Part shown: in pieces, positions 3,453 to 15,133 of the stretch
How the letters are laid out: every line of letters begins with the position of its first letter
How positions within the stretch are numbered: position 1 is the stretch's first letter
DNA from: a virus
Reading direction: 5' to 3' (one strand)
Virus record (IMG/VR): IMGVR_UViG_3300021959_000329
Coordinates: 1 to 26,110 of that record
DNA length: 26,110 nucleotides
Translations under genes and position numbers: made by a program
The notes under the pieces: generated by a model
What the model saw: the letters and a program-made list of their open reading frames with translations, nothing else
The model's database searches: none
What the model was told of the DNA's origin: nothing

Positions 3453-3458
3453 TATTTA
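3453..3458 (-). promoter_or_regulatory. Late promoter core TAAATA for gp17, 5 nt before its ATG
   Basis: Minus-strand GGTTAAATA, then TTGAT, then ATG. The TAA of the core is also the stop codon of the upstream gene, so the promoter is encoded in the stop region. There is no Shine-Dalgarno-like sequence between it and the ATG. Confidence 0.65.
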
Positions 3459-3806
3459 ACCAATAACATCGTCGTAATATCCTGTATTGAATCTAGCATC
3501 AAACAGTTTACGGCGATCTTGTTGTATTAGTATAGGTATCAGGGAAGCAAAAGGACCATTTGTTGGCTCGCTCCATAGCCATTCGTACTGTAAACTAGTA
3601 TCTAGGCGTTTACAGAGTTTTTTTAAGCGTCTGCGATTTGTGTTTTTAACTATATAGATGATTGCTTGGTTGTTACCTAAGTGTTCCCACTCGCCATCCC
3701 AAGATCTAATTTTGATTTCACCCTTTTGATAGGCTGTGTAACTCCAAGGGCAAACTTTTTTGATTTTGCTAAAGTAAGCTAACCAATCAACCTTTTCCGC
3801 GACCAC
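3456..3806 (-). CDS. Small protein of unknown function upstream of gp17, non-ATG start
   Basis: The frame is open from about 3869 and contains no ATG. I favour the GTG at 3806, which follows an AAAGG about 8 nt upstream and gives a 117-aa protein beginning just before the folded part (VDWLAYFSKIKKVCPWSY). A GTG at 3869 would add 21 basic residues but overlap the preceding gene by 83 nt; with 3806 the overlap is 20 nt. The sequence has several Trp residues, a central basic helix (NRRRLKKLCKRLD) and ends close to gp17, whose promoter overlaps its stop. The C-terminal part WLWSEPTNGPFASLIPILIQQ looks globular. No catalytic motif or membrane segment is seen. Linkage to gp17 suggests a late or packaging-related role, but I do not recognise it. 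A +1 frameshift fusion to the upstream gene is a less likely alternative. Confidence 0.75.
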   Translation of the reverse strand: MVAEKVDWLAYFSKIKKVCPWSYTAYQKGEIKIRSWDGEWEHLGNNQAIIYIVKNTNRRRLKKLCKRLDTSLQYEWLWSEPTNGPFASLIPILIQQDRRKLFDARFNTGYYDDVIG

Positions 3807-4503
3807 GGCCTTTACCTTTACCGCGCCCCTCAGTTGTTGTTTGATCTTCCATCTTCTTTTTCTTACCACGTCCGCGACCTTCAGTTGTTTGAACGTCTTC
3901 TTTTTTAGCTTCGCTTAGTGCTTTCCAAAGTGCTTCTTTAATTTGTCCACGTAAATCTTTTCCTTCTAAAGCTCTAGGATTGTCTCCGCCTGCTGTTGCT
4001 GGATAAGAACCTTTACGTTTGTGTAAATCGTCTCCGCCTGATGTTACAGCATCAATATCATCGTATTCTGGATCTGGTTCATTGTCCCAGGCTTCGTCTT
4101 TTTCTTTGTCCATTTCCTCTTCGTCACTGCTAGGACCAAAAGTTTTATGGGTTAACTTATCTAAGTCTGTATGAAAATCATCTTCTTGATCTTTACTTGC
4201 GCCTTCTTCATCATTGTCAACACCATCTTTTTCAATTGGGAGTTTAATCATAGGTGGCATTGCCATTTTTGGCTCTGAAGGCTCATCTTTAGGCATCATG
4301 TCTGGATTTACTTTTTGGAATAATTTCATAATTCCTTCAATATTGTCCATGCCCTGTGCGTTCATGCTAACATTCATTGTTGGCTCTGGCGCTTCTGGTT
4401 TTTCCATTGTTGGCATAGGAGCATCCATATGCGGATCGCCACATGCCTCATCTGTTTTAGTATCAAGTTCTCTAATTTTTTGATACAAATCTCTAAAATT
4501 CAT
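3787..4503 (-). CDS. Acidic protein with basic Arg/Gly/Lys tail, unknown function
   Basis: The 238-aa protein begins at an ATG with a good ribosome site (GGGGAG, 6 nt upstream) and lies 2 nt after the preceding gene. Residues 1-15 form a predicted helix (MNFRDLYQKIRELD). Residues 20-90 are rich in Met and Pro, with NVSMNAQGM. Residues 95-160 are strongly acidic (long D/E runs). The last 35 residues switch to a basic low-complexity tail with two copies of TTEGRG followed by runs of K, R and G. Such a charge-segregated, probably disordered protein could bind DNA or a scaffold through its tail. It sits in the packaging gene run between gp16 and gp17, which fits a head or core role, but that is inference. 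I do not recognise a characterised T4 protein. Its last codons overlap the next gene in another frame. Confidence 0.85.
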   Translation of the reverse strand: MNFRDLYQKIRELDTKTDEACGDPHMDAPMPTMEKPEAPEPTMNVSMNAQGMDNIEGIMKLFQKVNPDMMPKDEPSEPKMAMPPMIKLPIEKDGVDNDEEGASKDQEDDFHTDLDKLTHKTFGPSSDEEEMDKEKDEAWDNEPDPEYDDIDAVTSGGDDLHKRKGSYPATAGGDNPRALEGKDLRGQIKEALWKALSEAKKEDVQTTEGRGRGKKKKMEDQTTTEGRGKGKGRGRGKG

Positions 4504-5071: not shown

Positions 5072-5077
5072 TATTTA
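5072..5077 (-). promoter_or_regulatory. Late promoter core TAAATA, 5 nt before ATG at 5066
   Basis: Minus-strand GAATAAATA followed by TGAGT and ATG. The core overlaps both the TAA stop of gp16 (5075-5077) and an earlier in-frame ATG (5072). A GGAGAGG upstream would serve mRNAs coming from further upstream, so two start modes may coexist. Confidence 0.6.
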
Positions 5078-7540: not shown

Positions 7541-7546
7541 TATTTA
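7541..7546 (-). promoter_or_regulatory. Late promoter core TAAATA, 5 nt before ATG at 7535
   Basis: Minus-strand GGCTAAATA followed by CTAGT and ATG. It lies only a few bases after the T-tract of the gp19 terminator, so transcription is reset here: the gp18-gp19 unit stops and a new leaderless unit starts. Confidence 0.7.
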
Positions 7547-7617: not shown

Positions 7618-8259
7618 TTATTGTGCTCCACCGCCTGTGGTTAGAACTCCAAGTGTTCTAGCACCAATGTTTCTACCAATACCATCAACGCCGCCACCTC
7701 TGTATTGGATAGCATTGTCGTATCTTAGTGTCATAGAAATCATTGCTGGTTCATTTGATGTATAGTTCAAATCACCGTAGTCAATGTTTTGTACAAACGT
7801 ACCATATAGTTCAAAAGTTTCTAATACGTTTGGTGTTTGTGTTCCATTACCACCATCTAATACTTCGATTAGTGTAGTAAATTTATAGTCTTGACCTGAT
7901 GCAGCTGAAGCCTGCTCAAAGAAATCAAATTGTTTCTGGATTTGCTCACCGCATAATCTTTGAATAGAAGCACTTGCGTCATCACGAACATTAAGTGTAA
8001 TCTGTTCCCAGTTATGTCTACCTGCTAGATAGATACGTGAGTTGTAAACAGGAATTTCCATCTCTTCAAAGTTAATCTTTGGACGAGTTACATCCTGTAC
8101 TTGTTTTGTTAATTCTGTTGGTACTGTACCGTTAGCACCAAAACCTTGTAGTACCACCCTAAAGCGATACTTTAGCTTTGGCATCAACAAGCCTTGGTTG
8201 CTTGATGATGTATCAGTTGCTAAAGGAACTGTAAGTTTTGATAGTGTTGAAATAGCCAT
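7618..8259 (-). CDS. 19: Tail tube protein gp19
   Basis: The 213-aa protein forms the inner tube of the contractile tail. Recognisable tube features are the N-terminal LMPKLKYRFRVVLQGF strand, the loop with VQDVTRPKINFEEMEIPVYN, the AGRHNWEQITLNVRDD strand pair, and the C-terminal ELYGTFVQNIDYGDLNY and AMISMTLRYDNAIQ strands. T4 gp19 is 163 aa; the marine-type protein is longer, with a Gly-rich C-terminus. It starts at an ATG with GGAG 9 nt upstream and a late promoter 25 nt upstream, and it ends before a strong terminator, so it can be expressed as a short abundant mRNA, as expected for a high-copy virion protein. It follows gp18 as in T4. Confidence 0.95.
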   Translation of the reverse strand: MAISTLSKLTVPLATDTSSSNQGLLMPKLKYRFRVVLQGFGANGTVPTELTKQVQDVTRPKINFEEMEIPVYNSRIYLAGRHNWEQITLNVRDDASASIQRLCGEQIQKQFDFFEQASAASGQDYKFTTLIEVLDGGNGTQTPNVLETFELYGTFVQNIDYGDLNYTSNEPAMISMTLRYDNAIQYRGGGVDGIGRNIGARTLGVLTTGGGAQ

Positions 8260-8290
8260 TTAATTTGCTCCGTTTATATAATATTATTTA
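8260..8290 (-). promoter_or_regulatory. gp19 late promoter (TAAATA) with leader and Shine-Dalgarno
   Basis: Minus-strand GCTAAATAATATT (core 8285-8290) lies 25 nt before the ATG, and CGGAGC (GGAG at 8268-8271) provides a ribosome site. Predicted leader is about 20 nt. This differs from the 5-nt arrangement at other late genes in the window. Confidence 0.65.
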
Positions 8291-11300: not shown

Positions 11301-11688
11301 GATCAGCTCCCGGAACAGTTGCTTGTGCTGTTAGTTCATTCAGATCAATATCTGCTCTAACAACGTATGCTGAGTTAGCAACTCCTAAGAAAGAGTATGC
11401 CGCTTGAAGTCCGTATTCGTTTTGTTCGTCAGCGTTTCTAGGACTTCCTGAAACTGTTTGTTTAAAAATTGGTGTACCAAAAAAGTCAACTAGTTCACGT
11501 TGACTAGAAACTCTGTATACTTTGCCCACATTTGCCGCCAATGTTCCTTGTGCGATTCCTGTAGCAGAAGCATTTTGTTTATCTTGGGCTGTAGCGACTA
11601 CGATAAGTGGAGTGGTACCTCCGTCAGCGGGAGTGTAAAAACTCTCGTCTGTTACCGTAACCTGGACGCCTGGTGATTGTAGTGCCAT
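8326..11688 (-). CDS. 18: Contractile tail sheath protein gp18, enlarged
   Basis: The 1120-aa sheath protein is much longer than T4 gp18 (659). The N-terminus (SPGVQVTVTDESFYTP, residues 5-20) and the C-terminal third (from about 750: FNTRRSGFNIKVYRENYID, FNLISCPGYPEVTQ, YPWFAPAGIRRGGI, NPITFFNGVGLVNYGQRT, then the helical FVFEPNDKITRDEIKQAVES and a final strand-rich end) form the conserved sheath core that contracts. Residues about 125-720 are an insertion made of small beta modules: repeated G-x-x-W...DG-x-x-W units near 131-152, 360-392, 600-625 and 665-703, and two related segments near 245-330 and 470-550 that resemble flagellin-type hook domains. The insertion probably projects outward as surface decoration. 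Its start has a strong AGGAG site. It is the first gene of the gp18-gp19 unit. Confidence 0.95.
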   Translation of the reverse strand: MALQSPGVQVTVTDESFYTPADGGTTPLIVVATAQDKQNASATGIAQGTLAANVGKVYRVSSQRELVDFFGTPIFKQTVSGSPRNADEQNEYGLQAAYSFLGVANSAYVVRADIDLNELTAQATVPGADPFDGQYWLDTQSTNWGVFEWDGNPVTLDGQAFSNKAPIIINATDTDKLSGTAPSTGVGRVGDYAIVTVSDVVRIYYKGVDYTTVGNPISWNEIGTKGWRKTWAVFTADRDGHSAQVAQTTFEINGTTVTLPAGSTVDNVVTIVNNLNIQGVKAAKVNSKFTLFITDTVDDGLGDSTDSNVIVLADGSASINALFGTAGGVAAGNYYGPELQMSPHTSVPQWKSSSQLPRPSGSIWVKTTEPNQGARWRVKLWDGATETWVESLAPLYINPQTAIFNLDRTTGGESIPKDTLFVQYNYTEDSGYDNTPQTGSFKIFTRKATGNTSITSGIIDANTFGAGSYTINIKESITGQAALSSATAVTFTAAGAVSDANTVVTAINNAQLNHVEAEVVSGRVVITHNAGGEIRFEDVDSAMALMGYSAYDYSTSTGTTNLYAAPQGDDYDFVASNWLPLAGTTYGYIAANDAPQNDPSNGQRWYSSLTDEVDIMVHNGNTWVGYQDPTSPFYSASLADQTDPAGPMVSPTRPVEQSDGTPLKTGDIWIDTSDLENYPVIYKYNNDLSNTPIANRWRLVDKADASSEDGVVIADARWGTDGTKEEAGLIKDLLTSNYIDPDAPDPALYPAGIILFNTRRSGFNIKVYRENYIDQSQDNVRLNNQSMASYATDRWVTDSGEAFGRKAQRQSVIEKLKATISTNSQIREDEVRQFNLISCPGYPEVTQNLVDLNTDRGTTSFIVADSPFRLQADTQSLVTWGQNQNGATDNGDEGLVTFDEYTGVFYPSGLTTDNTGNTIVVPSSHMMLKTIALSDQVSYPWFAPAGIRRGGISNATSVGYVDRTTGDFQSVALTDAQRNTLYDIKVNPITFFNGVGLVNYGQRTRASGDSALDRINVARLVIYLRTQLNRLAKPFVFEPNDKITRDEIKQAVESLLLELVGLRALYDFAVVCDESNNTAARIDRNELYVDIAIEPVKSIEFIYIPLRLKNTGEIQGQASA

Positions 11689-11729
11689 TCGATTATCTCC
11701 TGATGGTTAATTTCTTGTATAGATATTTA
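11689..11729 (-). promoter_or_regulatory. gp18 late promoter (TAAATA) with leader and strong Shine-Dalgarno
   Basis: Minus-strand CGATAAATATCTATA (core 11724-11729) lies 35 nt before the ATG. CAGGAGAT (AGGAG at 11697-11701) sits 8 nt before the ATG. The predicted leader is about 29 nt. This is the best ribosome binding site in the window, matching the need for many sheath copies. Confidence 0.7.
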
Positions 11730-11795: not shown

Positions 11796-12131
11796 ATGAG
11801 ACCATTATGTAAGTGCGGTTTTAGACCGGCCGCTGTTAATTATAAAAAGAACGGACGCACATATTATAGGAAACTGTGCGAGAAGTGTGTTAAGCACGGT
11901 GAAGGGCATGGTATACCTAGATGGTATCAACTAGGCTATAGAATGGAAGATAAGTGTGACAAATGCGGGTTTAAATCTAAACACAAAGAAGTGTTTAATG
12001 TTTATCACATTGACGGCAATCTTAATAACTGTCGTCCTAGCAATTTAAAAACTATTTGTGCTAATTGTCAGAGGACTCTTCAGAAGGAAGGAAGTCGCTG
12101 GAAGCAGGGAGACTTAGTCCCCGATTTTTAA
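11796..12131 (+). CDS. HNH-like zinc-binding protein
   Basis: The 111-aa protein has zinc ligands CKC (residues 5-7), CEKC (28-31), CDKC (54-57) and CANC (88-91), plus an HNH-like centre: H71, D73 and N75 in FNVYHIDGN, followed by N83 in RPSNLKT. In HNH nucleases the last cysteine of the motif is often followed by His; here it is Gln92, so catalysis is doubtful. It may be a nuclease, a nickase or only a nucleic-acid-binding protein. I have an impression of close relatives in many marine T4-like phages, which argues against a selfish homing enzyme. It stands alone on the plus strand, divergent from gp18, and its last 71 nt overlap the 3' end of the convergent kinase-like gene. Confidence 0.85.
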   Translation: MRPLCKCGFRPAAVNYKKNGRTYYRKLCEKCVKHGEGHGIPRWYQLGYRMEDKCDKCGFKSKHKEVFNVYHIDGNLNNCRPSNLKTICANCQRTLQKEGSRWKQGDLVPDF

Positions 12132-13020: not shown

Positions 13021-13785
13021 CTATCCTATAATTAGACTGTAACCTGAATTATTACTACCTGCTACTGAAGTAGTCAATTCCATTGTAAGTCTTTCTAAAT
13101 CTGCTTGTGCTTCTGCTTTTAGATTAGCACCATTGAGAGCTGTTCCGCCTTGTGGACCAGCAATACTAGCAAACTTTTCACGTGCTTGTGCTAACATCAT
13201 TTTACAGTTAGCAAGTGTATAATCTTTAATCCATTGTCCTGAATACACATCTTTAATTATAGTCACATCAGGTTTTCTGTTATAAACGTGAAGTGCTACT
13301 TCTTCTTCTGATCTCGGTCTTTGATGGATGAATAATTTTTTAGTTTCAGTATGCCAAGTAAACTGAATAAAACTACCAAATGTTTTACCGACACGTTCTT
13401 GATAACCGGCAAATAATTCATATGTAGCAAGTCCGCCCATATTAGTTGAACTTAGTAAGTATGTATTTGTGTAAGCAAGGTTAAATGGTTCAAACACTGT
13501 ACCACCTTGTCCACCACCTGATCTAGATCCAATACTTCTACGCATTACTTCACGCACCATCTGTATTTCATCTGGTAGTGTGTACTCGTTCTGATCTAGT
13601 TCTAATTTTAAAAACGCAAAACTTTCTTCAACAGCATTGTCTGAACGCTGTCTAAAAACACCTAAAGCACGTTCCAGTGCTGTTTCATAGTGCTCGGGGT
13701 CTAGTTCAACGTCAATCATGCCTTCACCTAGCATAGTGCGGCAATAATTGAATACTTTTTGTTTTTCTTGATCTAATTGGCTCAT
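13021..13785 (-). CDS. 13: Neck protein gp13 (head completion)
   Basis: The 254-aa protein (T4 gp13 is 309) belongs to the head-to-tail connector: gp13 and gp14 complete the packaged head before tail joining. Family-like segments are the N-terminal helical part (VFNYCRTMLGEGMIDVELDP, then YETALERALGVFRQRSDNAV), EYTLPDEIQMVREVMRRS, and the C-terminal half QFTWHTETKKLFIHQRPRSE, VYSGQWIKDYTLANCKMMLAQARE and GGTALNGANLKAEAQ. The ATG at 13785 is chosen over a longer frame because it fits the family N-terminus and sits 5 nt after the TAAATA core; the longer frame would read back through the promoter. It is divergent from gp14, so two partners that act together are driven from one shared promoter region. 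Confidence 0.9.
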   Translation of the reverse strand: MSQLDQEKQKVFNYCRTMLGEGMIDVELDPEHYETALERALGVFRQRSDNAVEESFAFLKLELDQNEYTLPDEIQMVREVMRRSIGSRSGGGQGGTVFEPFNLAYTNTYLLSSTNMGGLATYELFAGYQERVGKTFGSFIQFTWHTETKKLFIHQRPRSEEEVALHVYNRKPDVTIIKDVYSGQWIKDYTLANCKMMLAQAREKFASIAGPQGGTALNGANLKAEAQADLERLTMELTTSVAGSNNSGYSLIIG

Positions 13786-13790
13786 ACAAG

Positions 13791-13811
13791 TATTTATCGT
13801 TACGATAAATA
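13791..13811. promoter_or_regulatory. Back-to-back late promoters in a 21-bp perfect palindrome
   Basis: Ten-base arms TATTTATCGT and ACGATAAATA flank one central T. The minus-strand core TAAATA (13791-13796) lies 5 nt before the gp13 ATG (CTTGT gap). The plus-strand core (13806-13811) lies 5 nt before the gp14 ATG at 13817 (TGTTT gap). Polymerases firing in the two directions would share the same DNA, so firing is probably mutually exclusive. Confidence 0.75.
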
Positions 13812-13816
13812 TGTTT

Positions 13817-15133
13817 ATGCCAAGATTAAGTCTATACCGCCCAGAGAAGGGCAACGATTATAAATTTATTGATAAAACTGCGTGGGAAATGTTCCAAGTA
13901 GGGGGTACAGACGTGTTTTTACACAAGTACATAGGTCCCGGTGAACAAGCAGACGGAGAATATAGCCCTACGGTTCCAAATTACGAATCAAGTACATCAA
14001 CTCCTGAAACTAGAATACAAGATATGCTATTTTTAGAGAATAGAGATCGTAAATATGAACCAAACGTATATCCGTTGAGAGGTGTATATAACGTTAACAA
14101 TATTGATTTTAATTTAAGTCAATTTGGATTGTTTTTACAAAACGATACACTGTTTATTACATTCCATATCAATGATACTGTAGAAAAACTTGGTAGAAAA
14201 ATTATGGCAGGTGACGTAATTGAATTACCACATCTGAAAGATGAATTTGCCTTAAACGATTTAACGTTTGCGTTAAAAAGATTTTACGTTATTGAAGAAG
14301 TAAATCGTGCCGCAGAAGGATTTAGTGTTACTTGGTATCCTCATCTGTATAGAGCAAAATGTACTCCACTAGTAGATTCACAAGAATTTAAACAAATACT
14401 TGATAAAGTTGCCGACGACGAAAACTTTAAAGGCAAGTATAATCCAGAAATACAATACGAAATTGGAGATGTTGTAGAATACGAAGGAACAAATTACACT
14501 GTGATTGAACCAGTAAAAGGTATTGCTCCTCCAGATAGTACGTACTATAAATTTGCTGATAGACTTAGAGATATTATGAGTACGTATGAAAAAGAAATGC
14601 AGATTACTGAAGCAGTTCAAGATCAAGCAGAAGCAGATGCTCCTAGGTCTGGTTACGATACAACAAAATTATTTACAATTCCAATTGATCCTGAAACAGG
14701 ACATGTAAAAACTGTTAACGCAAGTAATATTGATACAGATGCTAGTCAGACAGGAAACGCTCAAGACGCTAGTGTTGTATTAGCAACACCGGTAAAAGAC
14801 GGTTATCAAAACTATCATGAAGATGCTATTCCGCCAAACGGAGCACCTTTCACAAGCGGCATTGTGTTCCCAGCATCGCCGGTCGAAGGACAGTTCTGTT
14901 TACGTACAGATTATCATCCAAAGAGAATGTTTAGATTTGACGGGAGACGTTGGGTGAAATATGAAGATAATGTTAGAATGACAATGAGTCAAAATGATAC
15001 AGCAAGTGGCGATCCAAGATTGAATCAGAAAGGATCATTTATTAACAATCCTACTGTAAGTACAATTAACGGTAAGCAAGTTAAAGAAAAACAAAGCCTA
15101 AGCAAAGTGCTTAAACCTAAAGCGGATAATTAA
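13817..15133 (+). CDS. 14: Neck protein gp14 with added surface modules
   Basis: The 438-aa protein is longer than T4 gp14 (256). The first 190 residues carry the neck-protein core: YKFIDKTAWEMFQVGGTDVF, TRIQDMLFLENRDRKYEPN, PLRGVYNVNNIDFNLSQFGL and KIMAGDVIELPHLKDEFA. Next, about 205-245, is a chitin-binding-module-like segment (YEIGDVVEYEGTNYTVIEP). The C-terminal part has a G-x-x-x-LRTDYHPKRMFRFDGRRWVK module of the same type as those inserted in gp18. A GTG/ATG two codons earlier (13811) overlaps the promoter, so the ATG at 13817 is preferred. gp14 works with gp13 at the head neck. It opens a plus-strand operon with gp15 2 nt downstream. Confidence 0.9.
   Translation: MPRLSLYRPEKGNDYKFIDKTAWEMFQVGGTDVFLHKYIGPGEQADGEYSPTVPNYESSTSTPETRIQDMLFLENRDRKYEPNVYPLRGVYNVNNIDFNLSQFGLFLQNDTLFITFHINDTVEKLGRKIMAGDVIELPHLKDEFALNDLTFALKRFYVIEEVNRAAEGFSVTWYPHLYRAKCTPLVDSQEFKQILDKVADDENFKGKYNPEIQYEIGDVVEYEGTNYTVIEPVKGIAPPDSTYYKFADRLRDIMSTYEKEMQITEAVQDQAEADAPRSGYDTTKLFTIPIDPETGHVKTVNASNIDTDASQTGNAQDASVVLATPVKDGYQNYHEDAIPPNGAPFTSGIVFPASPVEGQFCLRTDYHPKRMFRFDGRRWVKYEDNVRMTMSQNDTASGDPRLNQKGSFINNPTVSTINGKQVKEKQSLSKVLKPKADN

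Follow-up and report, generated by a model that had tools for sequence, protein, structure and literature searches.

Back-to-back T4-type late promoter cores between divergent gp13 and gp14-position genes, and a predicted class of leaderless late messages in a jumbo phage clade

Late transcription of the T4 type is a textbook system in which late mRNAs are treated as leadered. T4 late promoters (TATAAATA; gp55/gp33/gp45) drive virion genes on both strands, and the octamer occupies positions −13 to −6, with variants at −13/−12 in T4 and Aeh1 (PMC2988020). Back-to-back late cores are already known, both from the divergent T4 virion genes 26 and 51 (TATTTATAAATA), where on our reading of the sequence both genes have Shine-Dalgarno (SD) leaders, and from the gp13/gp14 locus of Agrobacterium phage Atu_ph07 and Sinorhizobium phage Phosso, where the same divergent pair is separated by two outward late cores with spacers of 4 and 14 bp and has longer leaders with SD-like sites. 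Divergent starts that are too close for two polymerases and have near-symmetric −10 elements also characterise the E. coli bidirectional promoters (Warman/Grainger; PMC12825309), which use sigma-70, have shared or overlapping −10 elements, and start transcription typically at points 10, 18 or 23 bp apart. The locus described here resembles T4 26/51 in its back-to-back late cores between divergent virion genes and differs from it in having no SD leaders; it differs from the E. coli promoters in lacking a shared −10, with separate cores 9 bp apart, a spacer that varies among relatives, and inferred starts about 32 bp apart. The open-access literature that we searched, which was incomplete, yielded no description of leaderless late genes of the T4 type, and the leaderless placement of such promoters looks undescribed.

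The 26.1-kb window (the whole stretch of DNA analysed) is part of the genome of a T4-related jumbo phage whose closest cultured relative by protein is Atu_ph07, followed by Phosso, PA5oct and more distant jumbo phages. The leftward gene (positions 13021–13785, − strand) encodes a gp13-like neck or head-tail adaptor protein of 254 aa (phrog_211, E 1.4e-34) which is confirmed as a true relative of T4 gp13 (hhalign 97.6%, E 4e-12) and also matches the PDB T4 neck gp13. The rightward gene (13817–15133, + strand) encodes a virion structural protein of 438 aa (phrog_11591 'virion structural protein', E 8e-87) and is followed by a gp15-like gene. It should be noted that gp14 is used here as a positional name, which reflects the phrog_11591 match and a place adjoining gp13 and gp15. 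Profile comparison of the rightward protein with T4 gp14 was not significant (hhalign 0.5%) and no PDB match was found, and we rejected its identification as T4 gp14 as unsupported; the AlphaFold model of the protein (pLDDT 39) was too poor for use. The original prediction had taken the two products to be neck partners, and of this the gp13-like identity of the leftward protein stands while the kinship of the rightward one with T4 gp14 does not find support. An alternative in-frame ATG for the gp14 gene at 13811, which overlaps the rightward core, was also rejected, as homologues begin at 13817 and the methionine at position 3 of the longer reading (M3) does not vary among 16 relatives, which supports a start at 13817.

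The two start codons are 31 bp apart, and between them lie two outward-facing TAAATA cores, one for gp13 (13791–13796, − strand) and one for gp14 (13806–13811, + strand), each followed by N5 and then the ATG of its own gene (at 13785 and 13817, respectively). Read in both directions the sequence is GATAAATA, which corresponds to a T4-type late octamer (TATAAATA-like, with the TAAATA core). Both cores are held within a 21-bp perfect palindrome, TATTTATCGTTACGATAAATA (13791–13811, no strand assigned), with 10-bp arms around a single base (TATTTATCGT-T-ACGATAAATA) and its centre at 13801. In these respects, that is, in the coordinates of the palindrome, the 5-nt gap between each core and its ATG, the distance between the start codons and the identification of both elements as T4-type late promoter cores, the original prediction proved correct. 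The window has no second perfect palindrome whose arms reach 10 bp around a centre of 0–1 base; however, 0.16 such palindromes per window are expected by chance (dinucleotide-preserving shuffles), and the palindrome alone is not significant. The excess over chance lies instead in the arrangement TAAATA-N5-ATG, which precedes six genes in the window compared with 0.24 expected (P = 2e-7).

We compared the locus with 160 IMG/VR loci containing both genes, which yielded 70 distinct gp13/gp14 intergenic regions and 81 distinct upstream sequences, noting that many of the 160 contigs are near-duplicates and that the counts overstate the number of independent events. Both cores were kept in 70/70 regions, and relatives with one core only, which the original prediction had named as evidence that would count against it, were not seen. 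The 10-bp arms of the palindrome, on the other hand, were kept in only 3/70 regions, and in 65/70 the symmetry is limited to the bare 6-bp cores. The core-to-gp13-ATG gap is 5 nt in 81/81 upstream sequences despite 23 different N5 sequences, and a pyrimidine directly precedes the gp13 ATG in all of them, while the gp14 gap is 7 nt in 43 sequences, 8 nt in 25, 5 nt in 11 and 4 nt in one, with the core lost in the last (n = 81). The core-to-core spacer takes values of 0, 5, 8, 9, 10, 19, 20 and 30 bp, with abutting cores in one large relative and the 30-bp spacer at a locus with an inserted HNH-like gene. Because the distance between core and ATG is fixed while the distance between cores varies from 0 to 30 bp, each core is tied to the start codon of its own gene and not to the partner core. 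As the palindrome is also near chance level and lost in 65/70 relatives, we regard it as an incidental by-product of two inverted short late-promoter cores which happen to be 9 bp apart; neither the earlier view of the palindrome as one functional unit nor its treatment as an operator was retained, since the dyad symmetry is not conserved, the spacer varies and the occurrence is near chance.

We note that the core-to-core spacers of the gp13/gp14 gaps cluster at 9–10 and 19–20 bp, roughly a helical turn apart. We do not claim helical phasing, because spacers of 5 and 8 bp also occur, other pairs have 4, 14, 18 and 24 bp, and the independent events are few. At one locus (L131), a 208-aa HNH-like ORF (3586–4212, − strand) sits exactly between the rightward core and gp14, and has taken over this near-leaderless core (TAAATA-N7-ATG), leaving gp14 without one.

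In T4 numbering TAAATA represents the last six bases of the octamer (−11 to −6), so the base after TAAATA-N5 would be +1, and in the window this base is the A of the ATG. The predicted +1 is thus 13785 (− strand) for gp13, where the pyrimidine at −1 in 81/81 sequences agrees with it, and 13817 (+ strand) for gp14, where the start codon is backed by the invariant M3. A gap of 5 nt leaves no room for a ribosome-binding site, and the two mRNAs are thus expected to have no leader or almost none. In bacteria, leaderless genes are recognised by a −10 box located about 12 bp ahead of the start codon (PMC3160421); an element about 10–13 bp from the start codon with no room for an SD site is found in 81/81 gp13 upstream sequences (gap 5) and 79/81 of those of gp14 (gap 5–8). 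According to the same paper, a pyrimidine conserved directly ahead of the start codon may also serve as a signal for translation (PMC3160421). We also attempted to read the start site from genes with SD leaders in the same phages, and abandoned this because the pyrimidine-purine signal was too weak (0.32–0.35 at offsets 4–7 versus 0.15–0.23 at offsets 8–11), and the exact +1 is accordingly given as a prediction.

As in T4, TAAATA precedes the predicted start by one helical turn, and the relatives also encode a sigma factor of the gp55 type: a gp55-like protein (phrog_12791; E 1e-79 to 1e-118) was found in Atu_ph07, Phosso and PA5oct and in 7/7 IMG/VR relatives with a length of 100 kb or more. 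The window fragment itself contains no recognised gp55 gene, and dependence on gp55 is suggested by these relatives. The T4 gp45 sliding-clamp profile matched nothing in any genome searched, and this search was uninformative. At positions −13/−12 the clade mostly has A/G and A, compared with TA in T4.

The explanation we favour, and consider very probable, is that the 31-bp gap contains two independent T4-type (gp55-dependent) late promoters set back to back, each of which would consist of one −10-like element, the TAAATA core, that places the start of transcription on the A of its own AUG, with the palindrome as a by-product. In the window phage both mRNAs would then be leaderless, and in the relatives the gp13 mRNA would be leaderless and the gp14 mRNA would have at most about 3 leader nucleotides. 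Translation would proceed by the leaderless route, with the ribosome binding the 5'-terminal AUG and not an SD site, and the gp13/gp14 pair would be one instance of a genome-wide leaderless late class which exists beside an SD-leader late class in this jumbo phage clade.

The two classes can be distinguished by the distance between core and start codon, with a leaderless-type gap of 4–8 nt for neck and terminase genes and an SD-led gap of 16–40 nt for sheath, tube and fibre genes. Besides gp13 and gp14, the window has leaderless-type cores on the − strand, each followed by N5, before the terminase large subunit gene (core 3453–3458, ATG 3447; gap 5 in 16/16 orthologue upstream sequences with 11 different N5), gene g4506 (5072–5077, ATG 5066; gap 5 in 28/29), the tail-tube-like 383-aa gene g6384 (7541–7546, ATG 7535; gap 5 in 40/43), and an ATG at 1846 (1852–1857). 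In the gap-5 cases of gp13, terminase, g4506 and g6384, a pyrimidine always stands immediately ahead of the AUG. At three further sites in the window the core is 25–35 nt from the ATG, and these include two genes bearing SD sites, also on the − strand: the tail sheath gene (core 11724–11729, gap 35, CAGGAG before the ATG at 11688; gap 30–41 in 51/65 orthologue upstream sequences) and the tail tube gene (core 8285–8290, gap 25, CGGAG before the ATG at 8259; 18–27 in orthologues where a core was found). The same division is seen in relatives of 364 and 353 kb, in which the TAAATA-to-ATG distance is bimodal with a peak at 4–5 nt, a trough at 9–15 nt and a broad hump at 16–38 nt. Permuted hexamers predict 1.2 and 2.0 cases at 4–5 nt, whereas 23 and 30 were counted, respectively (P = 9e-22 and 7e-25). 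Both relatives also have further divergent leaderless-type pairs with cores 19 bp apart (for example, 252946–252976 in the 364-kb relative and 281419–281449 in the 353-kb relative). At two of the window cores (5072–5077 and 3453–3458), the TAA of the core is shared with the upstream gene, whose stop codon it forms; this overlap is found in 2/6 leaderless cores in the window, and in 6/25 and 8/36 of those in the large relatives.

Outside the clade, no excess at gaps of 4–5 nt was found in T4, Atu_ph07, PA5oct, RaK2, Aeh1, a Vibrio jumbo phage or the cyanophage Syn9, and the excess was weak or not significant in Phosso, P-SSM2, SCTP-2, Mosig and Melnitz. In T4 itself, the TAAATA-to-ATG distance peaks near 25–30 nt with no significant excess at 4–5 nt, unlike the clade where many cores are 4–8 nt from the AUG with no leader left. 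Pelagibacter phage HTVC008M, however, has 13 leaderless-type genes compared with 1.5 expected (P = 7e-9), and the start codons annotated in GenBank are the gap-5 ATGs. Its genome also includes two divergent leaderless genes, gene 2 for the DNA end protector and gene 4 for head closure (NC_020484, 18916–18943, locus L320), with the arrangement CAT-GTTAC-TATTTA-TATC-TAAATA-AGGAT-ATG. This is similar to the window pair in that TAAATA cores 4 bp apart are each 5 nt from an annotated start codon, and differs in involving another gene pair in a 147-kb genome of another family (Kyanoviridae). Three gp13-related loci with the leaderless layout belong to two MAGs that carry the labels Rickettsiales MED657 and Ca. 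Pelagibacter; co-binning is possible and we claim no host from these labels.

The original prediction was of a single palindromic promoter unit, mutually exclusive in its two directions, which would balance the amounts of two neck proteins. Both cores are conserved, as this would require, and with outward cores 9 bp apart two polymerases could not occupy both; the T4 sliding clamp, which lengthens the open-complex footprint on its upstream side by another 13 bp (PMC2988020), also counts in favour of exclusion. Steric exclusion on one template is thus plausible, and it is the balancing of dosage that lacks support, as exclusion does not by itself equalise two outputs. At the bidirectional promoters of E. 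coli, steric exclusion between opposed polymerases does occur; basal initiation, however, is too infrequent for them to compete, and one side is repressed only if the other is strongly activated (PMC12825309). There are, in addition, many genome copies late in infection, the palindrome is lost in 65/70 regions and the spacer is not conserved, and the same layout is found at single, non-divergent genes (terminase and g4506), all of which makes a balancing unit improbable. We consider it still harder to credit that the palindrome is the operator of a repressor or other regulator, or a hairpin or terminator, which overlaps the promoters by chance. The perfect 21-bp dyad in the window, and the 3/70 regions in all which have it, would fit such an element, but the symmetry has gone in nearly all relatives where the cores have stayed, and the window has no second perfect palindrome of this size against a chance expectation of 0.16.

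A different reading takes TAAATA-N5-ATG to be a translation-initiation or AT-rich accessibility signal within longer, leadered mRNAs and not a promoter. Translation signals of this sort are known, namely AT-rich upstream elements and dipyrimidines ahead of start codons (PMC3160421), and several of the cores lie on gene junctions where they overlap the upstream stop codon. Yet the same hexamer is found 16–40 nt upstream of SD-bearing genes, permuted hexamers do not produce the peak, T4 and Atu_ph07 have the hexamer without a gap-5 class, and the relatives have a gp55-type sigma factor. Furthermore, a longer mRNA for either of the divergent genes gp13 and gp14 would need a start site within its neighbour. 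A translation signal therefore seems very unlikely in comparison with two independent late promoters producing leaderless messages.

If two independent late promoters are the correct reading, it appears that an aquatic jumbo phage clade, together with one cultured pelagiphage, positions the gp55 promoter such that transcription and translation begin at the same base, and the part played by leaderless translation during infection by a phage would be directly testable in an isolated phage–host pair. The layout shortens gene junctions, as the TAA of the promoter can be the stop codon of the upstream gene, and lets two divergent genes share 31 bp. It also carries a warning for annotation, as gene callers relying on SD sites may misplace starts in these phages. 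Terminase and neck genes are in the leaderless class, and sheath, tube, fibre, spike-like and hub-like genes are SD-led, as is a ribonucleotide reductase. A tentative and rather doubtful extension is that neck, packaging and assembly proteins, as low-copy parts, are made from leaderless messages and the abundant sheath, tube and fibre proteins from SD-led ones, so that the position of the promoter relative to the AUG might set virion stoichiometry through the leaderless pathway of the ribosome, in a layout which may have arisen at least twice (in the clade and in HTVC008M). A strict low-copy/high-copy split was rejected, given that many members are of unknown function and ribonucleotide reductase is SD-led, and we keep the division as a hypothesis.

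Two minor observations can be added. A weak HNH endonuclease match (phrog_1571, E 8e-5) lies at 11796–12131 (+ strand) in the window, adjoining the sheath gene on the opposite strand. In both the 364-kb (L178–L196) and the 353-kb relative (L197–L214), TAAATA is also less frequent than any other arrangement of its letters (145 versus 276–562 occurrences in the 364-kb relative), as if late cores were purged outside promoters.
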